From assembly GCF_030644365.1 (NCBI RefSeq), contig NZ_CP130058.1:1054001-1118000 (forward strand): 64,000 nt of DNA, given 5' to 3'. A program made the translations under genes and the position numbers. The notes beneath the pieces were generated by a model. That model saw nothing but the letters and a program-made list of their open reading frames with translations. It was not told the DNA's origin and made no database searches. Position 1 is the first letter of the stretch. Every line of letters begins with the position of its first letter. Origin of the DNA: Schaalia sp. HMT-172 (GTDB lineage Bacteria > Actinomycetota > Actinomycetes > Actinomycetales > Actinomycetaceae). Of the stretch, positions 38,090 through 44,849 are shown piece after piece.

Positions 38090-38165
38090 GCCTCCGTAGC
38101 TCAATGGATAGAGCAAGGGCCTTCTAATCCCGAGGTTGCAGGTTCGAGTCCTGTCGGAGGCGCCA
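38090..38165 (+). tRNA. tRNA-Arg (anticodon UCU)
   Basis: Acceptor arms GCCTCCG / CGGAGGC, D-arm GCTC...GAGC, T-arm GCAGG-TTCGAGT-CCTGT and an encoded CCA. The loop CTTCTAA gives anticodon TCT. The anticodon stem AGGGC/TCCCG has only three Watson-Crick pairs, with A-G and C-U at its ends, which is unusual. Confidence 0.9.
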
Positions 38166-38944: not shown

Positions 38945-40364
38945 TGTCAATTTTTCTGTGTATGGGGGTTAGAGGTAGGGGGTGATTCGGTCGGGGTAGG
39001 CGGTGGTGAGTTGGGCGAGGGCTTGTTTCCAGTTGGTGGTGGTGTGTCCTTCGATGAGGCGGGTGTGTCCTGTTCGTTTGTTGGGGGGTTTGCCAGCGTC
39101 TGCGAGGCGCTGGGCGGCTCGTTTGTCTTCGATGTCGCAGATGGCGAGCCACAAGAGTTTGACGGCGGCTTCTTCGCTGGGGAAATGCCCGCGGTTCTTG
39201 GTGATTTTGCGTAGCTGGTAGTTCAAGGACTCGATAGCGTTGGTGGTGTACACGACGCGGCGCAGCATGGGCGGGAACGCCAAGAACGGCGTGAAGCGCT
39301 GCCAGGCGCGCTGCCAGGTGGCAACCGTTTGGGGGTAGCGCGCTCCCAGGTCGCTGGCCGCGAAGTCCTCCAGCGCCCCTCGGGCGGTTTCCTCGTTGGG
39401 CGCGCTGTACACGGCCTTGAGAGCCGCGGCGACGCTCTTGCGGTCCTTGTAGGACACGAAACGCATGGAGGCGCGGATTAAGTGAACGACGCAGGTTTGG
39501 ACCATGGACTGGGGCCAGGTCGCTTCGATGGCTTCAGGCAGGCCAGTAAGTCCGTCGCAGCACACGATCAGGACATCGCGTAGGCCTCGGTTGGCCAGCT
39601 CGGCGCACACGTGGGCCCAAAAGGAGGCGCCTTCATCGGCTTGGACCCAGATGCCCAGCACATGCTTGACCCCCTCCATGTCCACTCCGACCGCCAGGTG
39701 AGCGGCCCGGTTCTCCACCCTGTGATCGCATCGGACTTTGATGCGGATCGCATCCAGGTAGATCACCGGGTAGAACGCTTCTAAGGGGCGGTGCTGCCAC
39801 TCCAAGACGGCCTCGCACACCGCGTCAGTGATCGTAGAAATCGTCCCAGCGCCCACCTCCACGCCCAGGGTGGAGGCCAGGTGATGGCGGATATCGCGTA
39901 CCGTCATCCCCCCGGCATACAAGCTGATAATCATCGAATCCAAACCATCAAGGCGCCGCTGTCCTTTACGCACCAGGCGCGGGGTGAACGAGCCCGCCCG
40001 GTCCCGGGGAACCTCGATCTCGAAGGCTCCCACCTCCGACATCACGGTCTTCTTCGTCGTGCCGTTCCTCGTGTTCGAGCGCGCCTGCCCACTGGCCTGG
40101 CCCTTCTCATACCCCAAGTGCTCGGTCAGCTCCGCGGCCAACCCGCGCTCCAACGCCTCCTTAAGCAACGCCGGCAACAAGCCCTCGCTACCCGTCATCT
40201 CCACCTCGCCAGCATCAAGACGCTCAAACAACGCATCCAACGCCCCCGAGCGACGAAGCTCCTCCACCGTCTCACGCCCACTAGCGCGAGCCACAACAAC
40301 ATCATCATCATTCATCATGCATCAATCCTTTCAAACAAAAGACGGATACACAGACAATTAAACA
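38945..40364 (-). mobile_element. IS256-family insertion sequence
   Basis: A ~1.42-kb element bounded by imperfect inverted repeats: left TGTCAATTTTTCTGTGTAT and right (read inward) TGTTTAATTGTCTGTGTAT, 15 of 19 identical. It contains one full-length transposase gene on the minus strand. No target-site duplication is obvious in the flanks; both flanks contain GGCGCCG but not at matching distance. The exact ends may be off by a few bases. Confidence 0.8.
38969..40318 (-). CDS. IS256-family (Mutator-type) transposase
   Basis: 449 residues, full length for the family. DDE residues are visible in PVIYLDAIRIKVR, DVLIVCCDGLTGLPEAI and TTNAIESLNYQLRK. VPRDRAGSFTPRLVRKGQRR and MIISLYAGGMTVRDIRHHL are typical of the Mutator superfamily. 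No internal stop or frameshift, so it could be active. It fills almost all of the element. Confidence 0.95.
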   Translation of the reverse strand: MMNDDDVVVARASGRETVEELRRSGALDALFERLDAGEVEMTGSEGLLPALLKEALERGLAAELTEHLGYEKGQASGQARSNTRNGTTKKTVMSEVGAFEIEVPRDRAGSFTPRLVRKGQRRLDGLDSMIISLYAGGMTVRDIRHHLASTLGVEVGAGTISTITDAVCEAVLEWQHRPLEAFYPVIYLDAIRIKVRCDHRVENRAAHLAVGVDMEGVKHVLGIWVQADEGASFWAHVCAELANRGLRDVLIVCCDGLTGLPEAIEATWPQSMVQTCVVHLIRASMRFVSYKDRKSVAAALKAVYSAPNEETARGALEDFAASDLGARYPQTVATWQRAWQRFTPFLAFPPMLRRVVYTTNAIESLNYQLRKITKNRGHFPSEEAAVKLLWLAICDIEDKRAAQRLADAGKPPNKRTGHTRLIEGHTTTNWKQALAQLTTAYPDRITPYL

Positions 40365-40566
40365 CGCCTCGGCGCCGAGCGCAGCTTGTCGGATGGACAC
40401 CAGAAAGCGGACAGGCCTGCGGCAATGTGAATTCTCGTGGGGCATCGACGACACGAAGTGCCCTTGAACCTCATCTCCGGCACGGATGTGAGACGGGCGC
40501 TGTCACAAACTCCCGTTACGTGGACCGCCCCTGCGTGACCTGCGTGAAGGTGGAGATACTGGGGTC
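40365..40566. other. Short gap between the IS element and the metF leader
   Basis: About 200 bp without a gene. The last part holds GATACT (40555-40560), a possible -10 box six bases upstream of the candidate leader peptide ATG. Confidence 0.4.
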
Positions 40567-40632
40567 ATGAACGCACGAACGAACATCGCCCGTCGCATGT
40601 GCGGGTCCATTCGTGCCCGAATGTGCAGCTGA
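40567..40632 (+). CDS. Candidate 21-codon leader peptide upstream of metF
   Basis: ATG at 40567, TGA at 40630-40632. The peptide is Arg-rich and carries the repeated dipeptide Met-Cys (ARRMCGSIRARMC near its end). A -10-like GATACT lies just six bases upstream, so the message could be leaderless and start at this ATG. Cys- and Met-rich leader peptides controlling sulfur genes are known in Actinobacteria. It lies 72 bp before metF and precedes a hairpin that covers the metF ribosome site. Supported by position and composition only. Confidence 0.5.
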   Translation: MNARTNIARRMCGSIRARMCS

Positions 40633-40661
40633 CGCCGACGTCCACCATTCCCCAGGCTTCC

Positions 40662-40702
40662 ACCCGCCACCACACCGGCAGCCAACGCGCGCCCAGGCGG
40701 GT
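40662..40702 (+). promoter_or_regulatory. Hairpin sequestering the metF ribosome-binding region
   Basis: ACCCGCC (40662-40668) pairs with GGCGGGT (40696-40702), whose 3' arm carries the only G-rich sequence just before the metF GTG at 40705. Ribosome stalling on the upstream leader peptide could change this fold. Inference from sequence only. Confidence 0.45.
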
Positions 40703-40704
40703 CA

Positions 40705-41712
40705 GTGCCCCAACACGAGAGTCCCAACGTGCCCTTCTCTGACGACGACTACGCCTGTCCCTGCACCCACGATCACGAGCCCACGCTCCTGTCCTTCGAG
40801 GTCATGCCCCCGCGCAAGCCCTCCCTCGAGGCCCCCTTCTGGGACACGGTCGACCGTCTCCTCCAGGTCCGCCCCGACTTCATGTCCGTCACCTACGGCG
40901 CCGGCGGCAAGGACCGCCACAACGCCCGCTCAACGGTCCAGCGCCTCGTGCGCGACACGCCGATCCAGCCGATCGCGCACCTGACCTGCGTCGGTAACTC
41001 GACCTCAGAGGTCGTCTCCACCGTCTACGACTACCTCGACTCGGGCGTGCGCACCTTCCTCGCTCTGCGCGGTGACCCGCCCGTCGGGCAAGAAGACTGG
41101 ACCCCCGGACCCGGTGGCGTCGCCAGCGCTACGGAACTCATCCACCTCATTCGCACCGTCGAAAAGCGCCGCTGCGACGCCCACCCGGGCGAGGCCCTAC
41201 GCTCCGCCTTCAAGCCTCTGACGATCGCGGTCGCCGCATTCCCCGCCGGTAACCCCGCCGCCGGGACGACCCAGCAGCAGGAGGTCGAGCGCCTCCTCGT
41301 TAAGCAGGCAGCGGGCGCTTCCTTCGCGATCACACAGCTCTTCTGGGAGGCCGACGTCTACGCGTCCTTCGTCGAGCTAGCGCGCCGCGCCGGCGTCACC
41401 ATCCCGATCGTCCCGGGCCTGCTGCCCGCGACCGACCCGGCCCGCCTGCGCCGCGTCCAGGACCTGACCGGCATTGAGGTCCCCGAATACCTTCTGACGA
41501 CGCTGGCCGACTACCCCCACCAGGATGCGCGCGACGAGTTCGGCGCTGTCTTCGGCTCGCGCCTCGTCCACTCTGTCCTGGACGCGGGCGCCCCCGGCGT
41601 GCACCTCTACACCTTCAACAAGGCCAAGCCCGTCCTCGACATCCTTGCCCTCATGGGCGTGACGCCGGACCCGCAGTGGTCCCCGACCTCACACCCCTTC
41701 ACGCGCAACTGA
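40705..41712 (+). CDS. metF: Methylenetetrahydrofolate reductase
   Basis: 335 residues. Reduces 5,10-methylene-THF to 5-methyl-THF, the methyl donor for methionine synthesis by MetE downstream. Family motifs: LLSFEVMPPRKPSLE (with the catalytic Glu), PDFMSVTYGAGG, IAHLTCVGNS, TFLALRGDPP and ASFAITQLFWEADVY. The start used is GTG 40705; a later start is possible because the first ~25 residues (SDDDYACPCTHDHEP) are not conserved. It is followed by metE after 83 bp. Confidence 0.95.
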   Translation: MPQHESPNVPFSDDDYACPCTHDHEPTLLSFEVMPPRKPSLEAPFWDTVDRLLQVRPDFMSVTYGAGGKDRHNARSTVQRLVRDTPIQPIAHLTCVGNSTSEVVSTVYDYLDSGVRTFLALRGDPPVGQEDWTPGPGGVASATELIHLIRTVEKRRCDAHPGEALRSAFKPLTIAVAAFPAGNPAAGTTQQQEVERLLVKQAAGASFAITQLFWEADVYASFVELARRAGVTIPIVPGLLPATDPARLRRVQDLTGIEVPEYLLTTLADYPHQDARDEFGAVFGSRLVHSVLDAGAPGVHLYTFNKAKPVLDILALMGVTPDPQWSPTSHPFTRN

Positions 41713-41795
41713 GCGCACCCCTTCAATCCACCCCGCGGCCGGGTGCGGGCCACGCCCGCGTGCGCCGCACGAGTAGCACACCCAAGGAGAACACC

Positions 41796-44117
41796 ATGTC
41801 CGCTGCCCCCGCGCAGTTCCCCACCGCCACGATCCTGGCCTATCCCCGTATCGGCCGCGGCCGCGAGCTCAAGCGCGCCCTCGAGGCCCGCTGGGCCGGG
41901 CGCATCACCGAGGCCGAGCTGATCCAGGCCGCCAACGATCTGCGCAAGGAGAACCTCGCGCGCCTCGTCGAGCTCGGCCTGAACCCCTCCGACGCGTCCC
42001 TGGCCGACGCGCCCTCCCTGTACGACCACGTCCTGGACGCCACGATCCTCCTGGGTGCCATCCCGCCGCGCTTCGCCGGCCGGGCGGGCCTCGACCTCTA
42101 CTTTGCGCTCGCCCGCGGCGACGACAAGGTCGGCCCCGAAGAGATGACGAAGTGGTTCGACACGAACTACCACTACCTCGTTCCCGAGATCGGCCCCGAC
42201 ACGCCCCTGCGCTTCGCCGACGACACGATCACCCGCCGCTTCACCGACGCCCGCGAGTGGGGCTACGTGACCCGCCCCGTCCTGGTCGGCCCCGTCACCT
42301 ACCTGGCCCTGGCCAAGGCCGACCCGGCCACCCCCGACTTCGACCCGCTCACCCGCATCGACGAGGCCGTGGACGCCTACGCGCAGGCCCTGGCCTCCCT
42401 GCACGCCGCGGGCGCCCCCTGGGTGCAGCTCGACGAGCCGGCCCTCACCTCCGACAACCTCTCGCGCAGCCGCGCCGAGCTGGGGGAGCTTGCGGCCCGC
42501 GTCTACACGCGCCTCGCCGCCGCGACCGAACGCCCCCAGATCCTGCTCACCACCCCCTACGGCGACGCCTCCCGCGCGGCGGGCGCCCTCGCCAAGACCG
42601 GCGTCGAGGCCCTCCACGTCGACACGCTGCGCGGCTCGCTACCCGAGGGCGCGGACCTGTCCGGCGTCACCCTCGTCGTCGGCGCCGTCGACGGCCGCTA
42701 CATCTGGCGCGCCGACCTGGCCCAGCTGCGCGAGACCCTCAAGGCGGCGCAGGCCCTGGGCGCCGCACGCGTCACCGTCGCCACCTCCAACTCCCTCCAG
42801 CACGTGCCTCACGACACGGCGCTGGAGACCTGGGATGACGCGACGCTCAATGAGAACCTGCATGCCTGGCTGGCCTTCGCCGACCAGAAGGTCGCAGAGG
42901 TCGTCACCCTGGCCCGCGGCCTGGACGAGGGCTGGGAGGCCATCGACCCCGAGGTCGCCGAGGCAACCCGCGTCCTCACGCAGCGCGCAGCCGCCCCCGG
43001 CGTCGTGCGCCCCGAGGTCCGCGCCCGCACCGCCGCCCTGACCGAGGCCGACCGCACCCGCGAGCCCTACCTGGAGCGCGAGGCCGCCCAGACCGAGCGC
43101 CTGCACCTGCCCCCGCTGCCCACGACGACGATCGGCTCCTTCCCGCAGACCACCGAGATCCGCAAGGCCCGCGCCGCCAACGCGCGCGGCGAACTCTCCG
43201 ACGCGGACTACGAGGCACGCATGCGAGAAGAGATCGCCTCCGTCATCAAGCTGCAGGAGGAGCTGGGCCTAGACGTCCTGGTCCACGGCGAGGCCGAGCG
43301 TAACGACATGGTGCAGTACTTCGCTGAGCTGCTCGACGGCTTCGCGGCCACACGCAACGGCTGGGTCCAGTCCTACGGCTCGCGCTGCACGCGCCCGTCC
43401 ATCCTGTGGGGCGACGTCTCCCGTCCCGCCCCCATGACCGTGGGGTGGACCACTTACGCTCAGTCGCTGTCCGACAAGCCCGTCAAGGGCATGCTCACCG
43501 GCCCCGTCACCATCATCGCGTGGTCCTTCCCGCGCAACGACCTGCCGCTCGGCGAGATTGCCGACCAGATCGGCCTGGCCCTGCGCGACGAGGTCGCCGA
43601 CCTCGAGGCCGCCGGTATCGCCGCCATCCAGGTCGACGAGCCCGCCCTGCGTGAGCTCCTGCCCCTGGACGCCGACCGCCACGCCGACTACCTGAACTGG
43701 TCCGTGGGATCCTTCCGCCTGGCCACCTCCTGCGTGCGTCCCGACACCCAGATCCACACCCACCTGTGCTACTCCGAGTTCGGCCAGATCATCGACGCCA
43801 TCAAGGGCCTGGACGCCGACGTCACCTCGATCGAGGCGGCGCGCTCCAAGATGGAGGTCGTCCCCGAGCTCGCCGAGGCTGGCTTCGACCACGGCATCGG
43901 CCCCGGCGTGTGGGACATCCACGCCCCCCGCGTGCCCAGCACCGAAGAGCTCGCCGAGCTCATCGGACTGGCCGCTGACGCCGTGCCGGTCTCGCGCCTG
44001 TGGGTCAACCCCGACTGCGGCCTCAAGACCCGCGGCTACGAGGAAACGAAGGCGTCGCTGGACAACCTTGTCTCCGCTACTCGACAAGTGCGTGCCCAGC
44101 GCGGCCTGGAGAGCTGA
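41796..44117 (+). CDS. metE: Cobalamin-independent methionine synthase
   Basis: 773 residues from ATG 41796 (AAGGAGAACACC upstream). Transfers the methyl group of 5-methyl-THF-polyglutamate to homocysteine. The N-terminal half begins ATILAYPRIGRGRELKRALE; the catalytic half has TTTIGSFPQTTEIRKAR and zinc ligands in THLCYSEF (His, Cys) and NPDCGLKTRG (Cys). Length is normal. It is clustered with metF and followed by a strong terminator. Confidence 0.97.
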   Translation: MSAAPAQFPTATILAYPRIGRGRELKRALEARWAGRITEAELIQAANDLRKENLARLVELGLNPSDASLADAPSLYDHVLDATILLGAIPPRFAGRAGLDLYFALARGDDKVGPEEMTKWFDTNYHYLVPEIGPDTPLRFADDTITRRFTDAREWGYVTRPVLVGPVTYLALAKADPATPDFDPLTRIDEAVDAYAQALASLHAAGAPWVQLDEPALTSDNLSRSRAELGELAARVYTRLAAATERPQILLTTPYGDASRAAGALAKTGVEALHVDTLRGSLPEGADLSGVTLVVGAVDGRYIWRADLAQLRETLKAAQALGAARVTVATSNSLQHVPHDTALETWDDATLNENLHAWLAFADQKVAEVVTLARGLDEGWEAIDPEVAEATRVLTQRAAAPGVVRPEVRARTAALTEADRTREPYLEREAAQTERLHLPPLPTTTIGSFPQTTEIRKARAANARGELSDADYEARMREEIASVIKLQEELGLDVLVHGEAERNDMVQYFAELLDGFAATRNGWVQSYGSRCTRPSILWGDVSRPAPMTVGWTTYAQSLSDKPVKGMLTGPVTIIAWSFPRNDLPLGEIADQIGLALRDEVADLEAAGIAAIQVDEPALRELLPLDADRHADYLNWSVGSFRLATSCVRPDTQIHTHLCYSEFGQIIDAIKGLDADVTSIEAARSKMEVVPELAEAGFDHGIGPGVWDIHAPRVPSTEELAELIGLAADAVPVSRLWVNPDCGLKTRGYEETKASLDNLVSATRQVRAQRGLES

Positions 44118-44140
44118 GGCTTCTTCTAGGCGATAGGTGA

Positions 44141-44169
44141 GGGGCGGGACCCGTTGGTCCCGCCCCTTT
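44141..44169 (+). terminator. Terminator after metE
   Basis: GGGGCGGGACC-CGTT-GGTCCCGCCCC, a perfect 11-bp stem, followed by TTTC. Confidence 0.85.
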
Positions 44170-44323
44170 CCGTCTGCCCACCTCACGGACGCCACTGTTA
44201 CACAGTCTCATTGTACGGACGCCGTGTTGCCCGGATGGAAACCGTCCGACAGACTAGAGCCATGACGACCTTCGCGAACCCCATGTGCTGCCCCTGCGGT
44301 GGCATGATGTCGCGAATGTGTAT

Positions 44324-44356
44324 GTGATTGACGCCCCAGATACCCCTGTCAATCAC
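44324..44356. promoter_or_regulatory. Inverted repeat GTGATTGAC / GTCAATCAC before the winged-helix regulator gene
   Basis: Perfect 9-bp arms spaced by 15 bases, 62 bp upstream of the ATG at 44418. Likely operator or transcript hairpin; autoregulation by the adjacent regulator is possible. Confidence 0.5.
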
Positions 44357-44417
44357 CGCCGCAGTGATATACCCACGCCGATAGTGGGAGTGCGGCCCCG
44401 AAGAATCGGATACACCC

Positions 44418-44849
44418 ATGACCCTCGTCAACACCCCCGCCTCCTCCGTCCGCGCCGCCGACGACCGCCCCACCTCCTACGAGGACTTCCTTGACGTCCT
44501 CGCCGGCCTGCGCCTGAGCTCCTCTCGCATCGACATCGACATCGACCGCGGCCAGGTCACCCTCGACGGCAGCGACGCCGGGCTCTCTGCCAAGGAACAC
44601 GACCTCCTGGCCCATCTGGCATCCAACGCCGACCGCGCCGTCACCCGCGACGAGCTCTTCGCGTCCGTGTGGGCCGACTCTGAACTCGGAGCCGACTCGC
44701 GCACCGTCGACGCCCACATCCGACGCCTGCGCAAGAAGCTCTCCATCCTGCCCGACCTCATCTCGACGGTGCGCGGCCAAGGCTACCGCTTCAACTCCAC
44801 GCCTGCGGTGCGCGTGCGCGTCACCCGCCCCGTCGCCCTCGCCGCCTGA
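44418..44849 (+). CDS. Standalone OmpR/PhoB-type winged-helix DNA-binding protein
   Basis: 143 residues. The C-terminal ~90 residues are an OmpR/PhoB-type effector domain: GLSAKEHDLLAHLASNADRA, VTRDELFASVWAD, SRTVDAHIRRLRKKL and STVRGQGYRF. The usual response-regulator receiver domain is missing; the first ~45 residues are unstructured-looking. It is therefore an orphan DNA-binding module not obviously controlled by phosphorylation. No sensor kinase is nearby. Targets are unknown. Confidence 0.88.
   Translation: MTLVNTPASSVRAADDRPTSYEDFLDVLAGLRLSSSRIDIDIDRGQVTLDGSDAGLSAKEHDLLAHLASNADRAVTRDELFASVWADSELGADSRTVDAHIRRLRKKLSILPDLISTVRGQGYRFNSTPAVRVRVTRPVALAA

Follow-up and report, generated by a model that had tools for sequence, protein, structure and literature searches.

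Putative short leaders ending in Arg-Met-Cys-x-stop precede several methionine genes in Schaalia and related bacteria

Sequence comparison indicates that very short leaders ending in Arg-Met-Cys-x-stop precede several methionine genes in the bacterial group to which Schaalia sp. HMT-172 belongs. We analyzed a window of 64,000 nucleotides, i.e., the whole stretch of DNA under study, together with related genomes. In the 2.53-Mb genome of this strain, the pattern CGNATGTGYNNNTGA produced three matches, located before metF, before the gene of a winged-helix regulator just downstream of metE, and before metY, as compared with no control match. We refer to these ORFs as RMC-stop leaders, a grouping of our own that is defined by a -10 box, an ATG, an in-frame CGA-ATG-TGY-NNN-stop, and a methionine gene or neighboring regulator downstream; the leaders of metF, the regulator, and metY in this genome all show these features. 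They suggest a little-described way of tuning methionine synthesis, and the literature surveyed says little about how methionine genes of Actinobacteria are controlled at the RNA level.

The metF leader ORF (MNARTNIARRMCGSIRARMCS-stop, 21 codons) spans positions 40567..40632 of the forward strand, on which all features reported here lie unless stated otherwise, with the ATG at 40567-40569 and the stop codon TGA at 40630-40632. A -10 box, GATACT (40555..40560), is placed 6 bases upstream of the ATG, so close that we infer leaderless transcription. This frame and its box had been pointed out in a preliminary description of this DNA and were recovered here. All 10 close relatives possess CATACT or GATACT at the same spacing of 6 bases; the best -10 score upstream of 19 metF leaders averaged 5.89 vs 3.14 for shuffled upstream DNA, and a -10-like box was found 6 to 7 bases before the ATG in 18/19 metF leaders and 9/9 metY leaders. 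When the ATG with the best -10 box was picked without regard to frame, it shared the frame of the terminal CGAATG in 18 of 19 metF leader regions, where the chance expectation is one-third and the sequences are related to each other. Among the 10 close relatives, the metF leader is the best-conserved stretch upstream of metF, with 56/66 invariant columns, as compared with 29/96 in the spacer to GTG 40729 and 17/24 in an upstream box. Six of its 21 codons differ among these relatives, two of them only synonymously, which indicates that nucleotides are conserved besides residues; since third positions are also conserved, part of this conservation may concern RNA or DNA. The leader matched the leader peptide profile, which includes this leader itself, with an E value of 3.3e-10, and the sets of 5, 2, and 2 leaders that were run against NCBIfam and Pfam gave no model matches. 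As judged from these alignments, the metF leader frame is real and conserved.

Relatives of metF were present in 23 of the 35 genus genomes, and 22 of these 23 hold a counterpart of the leader, because re-inspection of loci initially scored as unclear yielded the leaders MTHAASAARLGNARARMRS, MTHTAFAARLGNARARMRS, and MLIRVQLADGLGVGLCMRMPR. The single genome with no leader is G002 (L023), whose MetF is distant (40% identity). The leaders of G003, G004, and G025 are outside the sets of 19 used for the masking, -10/conservation, and frame analyses. Two Met-Cys pairs had been proposed as the hallmark of the leader. Both are present in the leader of our strain, but the first pair is limited to the 10 close relatives, and the conserved feature of metF leaders, as read from their alignment, is instead the ending R-x-R-M-(C)-x-stop, represented here by CGA-ATG-TGC-AGC-TGA (40618..40632). 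Beyond the close relatives it is mainly this ending that is retained, as in MLERSSGRSALVGSIRARMCA and MTNRALPISRSGGGTRARMCN. Of the 22 leaders, 17 have Met-Cys as the terminal pair, 4 have Met-Arg, and 1 has Met-Pro; the terminal Met is thus invariant, 5 leaders carry another residue in place of the last Cys, and 2 of the 4 Met-Arg leaders are free of Cys. Cys was consequently rejected as a required residue, so that of the two amino acids whose scarcity was thought to be sensed, the case for Cys is weakened and that for Met is maintained. Contiguous Cys codons are absent, the metF leaders having isolated Cys codons or none. The residue frequencies after the start were 0.089 for Met and 0.070 for Cys in 19 metF leaders, and 0.217 and 0.153, respectively, in 30 winged-helix leaders.

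The third leader of the genome, MNRRMCR-stop (C1:401648), precedes metY (TIGR01326, above the cut-off) and is common to 9 own-clade genomes, in which the fold differs and which are not among the 27 loci of other genera described below. In G002, MFSRLTRRMCS-stop precedes a MetX-like start (110 residues, TIGR01392 E value of 2.2e-16). From at least 102 places outside the genus, 20 places in other genera of the family were chosen for their recurring ending; 14 of them proved to be leaders of metY (e.g., MFRRMCR, MSRRMCT, and MLCNRRMCR), 4 lie upstream of a short unidentified gene, and 2 are inside genes. A TAGAGT-like -10 box mostly precedes the ATG of these metY leaders. Longer leaders ending in CRCLCRMCR or RRRLCRMCR were seen at four loci of another genus (L209, L214, L215, and L216), followed by a short conserved ORF that encodes DVLPIQEVV (as seen in L209, L214, and L216). 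In the order as a whole, the RRMC-x-stop pattern was found at 86 places in 79 of 396 genomes, as compared with a single control place. The reading of 30 of these loci revealed 20 metY leaders and 10 chance-like matches, and outside the family 11 of 17 were metY leaders; metY was identified by model for two proteins and otherwise by eye.

The closest ATG upstream of the CGA is at a distance of 9, 12, or 15 bases in the 27 metY loci of other genera, and the frame was kept in 27/27 of these and in 9/9 own-clade metY leader regions; these counts take related sequences as they come. At 18 of the 27 loci, CGN-CGA-AUG-UGY can pair with a GCACGUUCG-type sequence to form a hairpin that has the stop codon in or beside its loop, and at the other 9 the hairpin is absent. 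The constancy of the CGA codon rests on the loci retrieved by gene homology, because the loci fetched from the pattern search were mainly CGA matches. Seven codons is very short for a leader peptide. The metY leader, with 7 codons that include one internal Met and one Cys and are kept across the order, would make it easy to test leaderless, possibly initiator-tRNA-linked control with a reporter.

The most elaborate case precedes the lone winged-helix (Trans_reg_C) regulator of 143 aa (44418..44849; PF00486, E value of 4.8e-23). Of the 35 genus genomes, 33 encode strong relatives of this protein, and the matches listed from outside the genus contain only generic response-regulator-like relatives. 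The 16 named records with strong relatives comprise 13 labeled Schaalia or Actinomyces, including S. odontolytica, and 3 bearing other genus names. Its Met/Cys-rich leader ORF (MTTFANPMCCPCGGMMSRMCM-stop, 44262..44327) was found with the metF leader peptide profile, which also matched sites upstream of another gene. All 30 loci examined carry a leader ending in R-M-C-[MIR]-stop, 29 of the 30 being in frame. The RNA of this leader ORF has a z score of -2.87, and that of 44263-44421 is strongly structured (z score of -4.35, 0/200 shuffles). Folding predicts a helix P0 inside the leader (44271..44316; TTCGCGA, 44271-44277, with TCGCGAA, 44310-44316) and, further downstream, a four-way junction (44318..44415) that is supported by folding, covariation, and a covariance model. 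The junction consists of P1 (44318-44323/44410-44415), P2 (44325-44332/44348-44355), P3 (44358-44363/44391-44396), and P4 (44398-44401/44406-44409). P2 starts within the stop codon of the leader, and in P1 the Met-Cys-Met codons are paired with AUACAC directly upstream of the start codon of the regulator.

Covariation was analyzed in 22 winged-helix sequences, namely, 29 sequences minus 6 near-duplicates and G027, with the tested structure drawn from the same sequences. In 12 of 30 pairs both sides had changed, a value reached by 0 of 500 shuffles, and sliding the partners lowered pairing from 87.8% to 28-41%; the number of further pair types was not above that of shuffles (113/500). P0 covaries (14 cells, 0/500 shuffles), P0b is within the range of shuffles (82/500), and P1 is nearly devoid of covariation, with 1 cell in one analysis and none in the alignment of 22, as its only compensatory change is found in the excluded G027. 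The covariance model, R1, detected the element in the same 33 genus genomes as the gene, among 213 family genomes, and elsewhere in the family at 5 weak places in 3 genomes (E values of 0.004-0.025), in a search with stricter filters, which lose weak matches. G024 (L046/L070) contains two tandem copies of leader and RNA (E values of 1.3e-19 and 6.0e-7). The sole match of R1 in the window is at 44313-44420, and the idea that the metF leader is a second copy of this RNA was rejected on these grounds. The winged-helix leader is a compact candidate for an RNA family not represented in Rfam.

The effect of a ribosome on this RNA was modeled by masking the RMC codons with a ribosome footprint and computing the openness of positions -12 to +3 of the downstream gene. 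With G024 left out and about 10 of the 29 leaders near-identical, masking raised the openness of the winged-helix start from 0.37 to 0.55, and 28 of the 29 sequences showed an increase. With the ribosome at the leader stop codon the value was 0.51, near the RMC-masked one, and one at the leader start codon gave a mean of 0.36, some lineages showing a rise (0.52 to 0.77 in G015). According to these models, a ribosome held at the end of the leader would switch the winged-helix gene on.

Two similar 24-bp boxes (GT[TC]ACA...GGAC) are located about 40 to 65 bases upstream of the ATGs of the metF and winged-helix leaders, namely, GTCACAAACTCCCGTTACGTGGAC (40502..40525), a possible regulator site, and GTTACACAGTCTCATTGTACGGAC (44197..44220). 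Both came from the own-genome pattern, and they are possibly sites of the winged-helix regulator. The metY box is a 25-bp form with one base more, missed by the pattern and recognized by eye. In the own genome the pattern gave a third match at C1:776035, plus one control match; the next gene there is glutamine amidotransferase-like, as judged by eye, and this box was taken as a chance match. About 180 bp upstream of the box at 40502 is an IS256-family transposase gene (38969-40318, reverse strand; NF033543, E value of 7.9e-119), and a tRNA is encoded at 38090-38162 of the window. Since some relatives have a tRNA upstream of metF (L012), an insertion may have separated the two here. Just after metE, a long GC hairpin with three T's (44141-44169) was noticed by eye and was unflagged by the terminator scan; it suggests that the winged-helix gene may be transcribed as a separate unit.

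We consider it probable that the metF leader is a leaderless attenuator in which the position of the ribosome on the RMC-stop segment sets the downstream fold. Transcription would begin at or next to the leader ATG, the ribosome would initiate right at the mRNA 5' end, and its dwell time on the terminal Arg-Met-(Cys)-x-stop codons would depend on methionine supply. Methionine would be sensed via Met-tRNA, possibly the initiator fMet-tRNA, with Cys being optional at metF. Where structure is recognizable, the RMC-stop segment doubles as one arm of a helix in the mRNA, for which reason the ribosome position would decide the downstream fold, and this fold would in turn set translation, or Rho-dependent elongation, into the gene. 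At the winged-helix gene the attenuator reading is well supported by sequence comparison. Conservation of the leader also supports the earlier proposal that it ties metF-metE to the supply of sulfur amino acids, and further support comes from the recurrence of this ending upstream of the winged-helix gene and metY and, in one genome, of metX. Several observations speak against the attenuator. Among them, MTHTAFAARLGNARARMRS-stop has one internal Met codon, which is a weak stall signal, the RNA before metF is not more structured than shuffles, P1 hardly covaries, 9 of 27 metY leaders have no hairpin, and a stalled ribosome and one at the stop codon give similar results on masking. A bolder version, which we regard as rather unlikely, is an order-wide RNA-peptide switch in which the RRMC-x peptide or leaderless fMet initiation would arrest the ribosome near the stop codon in response to a change in methionine or S-adenosylmethionine. 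The stop codon, which in the absence of a ribosome is in or beside a hairpin loop, would be the switching point, and at the winged-helix regulator the switch would have grown into the four-way-junction RNA, resulting in a two-layer methionine regulon.

The preliminary description had offered a different mechanism, according to which scarcity of Cys or Met stalls the ribosome on the two Met-Cys pairs, thereby freeing the metF ribosome site from a 7-bp stem that covers it. The frame and the stem exist (40662..40702; ACCCGCC, 40662-40668, with GGCGGGT, 40696-40702), but the role of the stem is doubtful, and it lies upstream of the likely ribosome site because the true metF start is probably GTG 40729, 24 bases downstream of 40705 (metF, 40729..41712, by TIGR00676 and start conservation). 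GTG 40729 is kept in 10/10 close relatives and is preceded by the Shine-Dalgarno-like GAGAG (40717..40721) seen in their alignment, whereas at the position of GTG 40705 our sequence alone has an in-frame start, G020 having TAG there; no further upstream start common to the 10 close relatives was found, and a start at 40705 was rejected. A gene caller may thus place the start 24 bases too early. TIGR00676 matched the longer metF frame with an E value of 9.7e-69, below the curated cut-off of that model. While the alignment across the genus confirmed the leader, the RNA from leader to start (40567-40731) was no better folded than shuffles (z score of +0.79, 158/200 as good), the z score of the spacer alone was -0.54, and a hairpin of varying sequence can be drawn by eye in the spacer of several relatives. 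Masking the RMC codons opened the metF start in our own sequence (0.35 to 0.56), but over the 19 metF leaders the mean was 0.42 free vs 0.41 masked, so that the claim of an opening stem did not hold. The end of the leader in G033 has complementarity to the metF Shine-Dalgarno, but masking failed to open the metF start of this genome (0.48 to 0.44). Together with the restricted first pair and the loss of the last Cys, these results make a Cys or Met-Cys stall of this kind improbable.

Other readings concern the level of control. Rho-dependent or other transcriptional attenuation in the metF spacer would make sequestration of the start unnecessary, and we hold it to be possible but less than likely. 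A scan of 40400-40800 and 44100-44450 found 0 terminator-like sites, so that translational or Rho-dependent control is likelier at either leader than classical termination; the metF spacer is variable and weakly structured, and a Rho model was put forward for the Cys leaders of Actinobacteria, although its own authors, in the portion available, call it weak (PMC1262725). The conserved junction beside the winged-helix start, on the other hand, suggests translational control there. That the conserved segment acts chiefly as structured RNA or as a protein-binding hairpin, with the reading frame being incidental, would agree with the pairing of CGAAUG with UUCG-type partners in several contexts and with the high third-position conservation of the metF leader. 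Nevertheless, we judge it unlikely, since the frame is kept in 18/19, 29/30, 9/9, and 27/27 leaders of differing length, and the fold in which this ending is embedded differs between metF, metY, and the regulator. It is highly improbable that the ending is not regulatory and is conserved by chance or as promoter DNA: the upstream box and the -10 are themselves conserved, but the order-wide recurrence before metY, the covariation of the winged-helix RNA, and the location of 3/3 own-genome matches before methionine genes or the adjoining regulator argue against it.

Among known systems, a riboswitch or T-box was rejected by searches with Rfam covariance models, which at the gathering cut-off found only tRNAs in the window and in 20 related loci and, with E values of up to 10, nothing above the gathering score in 40400-44500. 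The metE B12 riboswitch of M. tuberculosis with its uORFs resembles the present leaders in having a short translated ORF before a methionine synthase gene and translational control, and differs in its cobalamin aptamer, none of which was found at the present leaders (PMC11260477, in the part accessible). Among the top literature matches, RMC-stop leaders before metF, metY, or the winged-helix gene were undescribed, with most subscription journals outside this coverage. The Cys leader peptides that Seliverstov et al. (2005, PMC1262725) described upstream of cys and cbs genes are likewise candidate leaders of Actinobacteria that lack conserved terminators, but have Cys runs near the stop; the available text of that study observed no conserved RNA structure before methionine operons. 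The metL leader of Streptomyces lividans, MSTTSDRTPATEATTTPGARCMCRRMCAF-stop, was reported as leaderless before metNIQ (PMC8079986). It resembles RMC-stop leaders in preceding genes that serve methionine supply, those for its import, in its ending RRMC-A-F-stop, and in having no typical terminator, whereas its target is a set of transporter genes, its Met/Cys cluster is denser, and two residues follow the last Cys; a wider family of such leaders is not described in the sections of that article at hand. The polycysteine leaderless short ORFs of mycobacteria are Cys-responsive attenuators (Canestrari et al. 2020, as cited in excerpts of PMC9031893 and PMC13236596). They share with RMC-stop leaders a short ORF before sulfur genes, putatively leaderless in RMC-stop leaders, and codons for sulfur amino acids; RMC-stop leaders differ, as far as those excerpts allow comparison, in having no run of Cys codons, methionine genes downstream, a fixed RMC-x-stop ending, an invariant Met and an optional Cys at metF, and a strong RNA junction at the regulator copy. 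Because a Cys run was tested for and is absent, RMC-stop leaders would represent a variant of leaderless leader-peptide attenuation rather than polycysteine attenuators.
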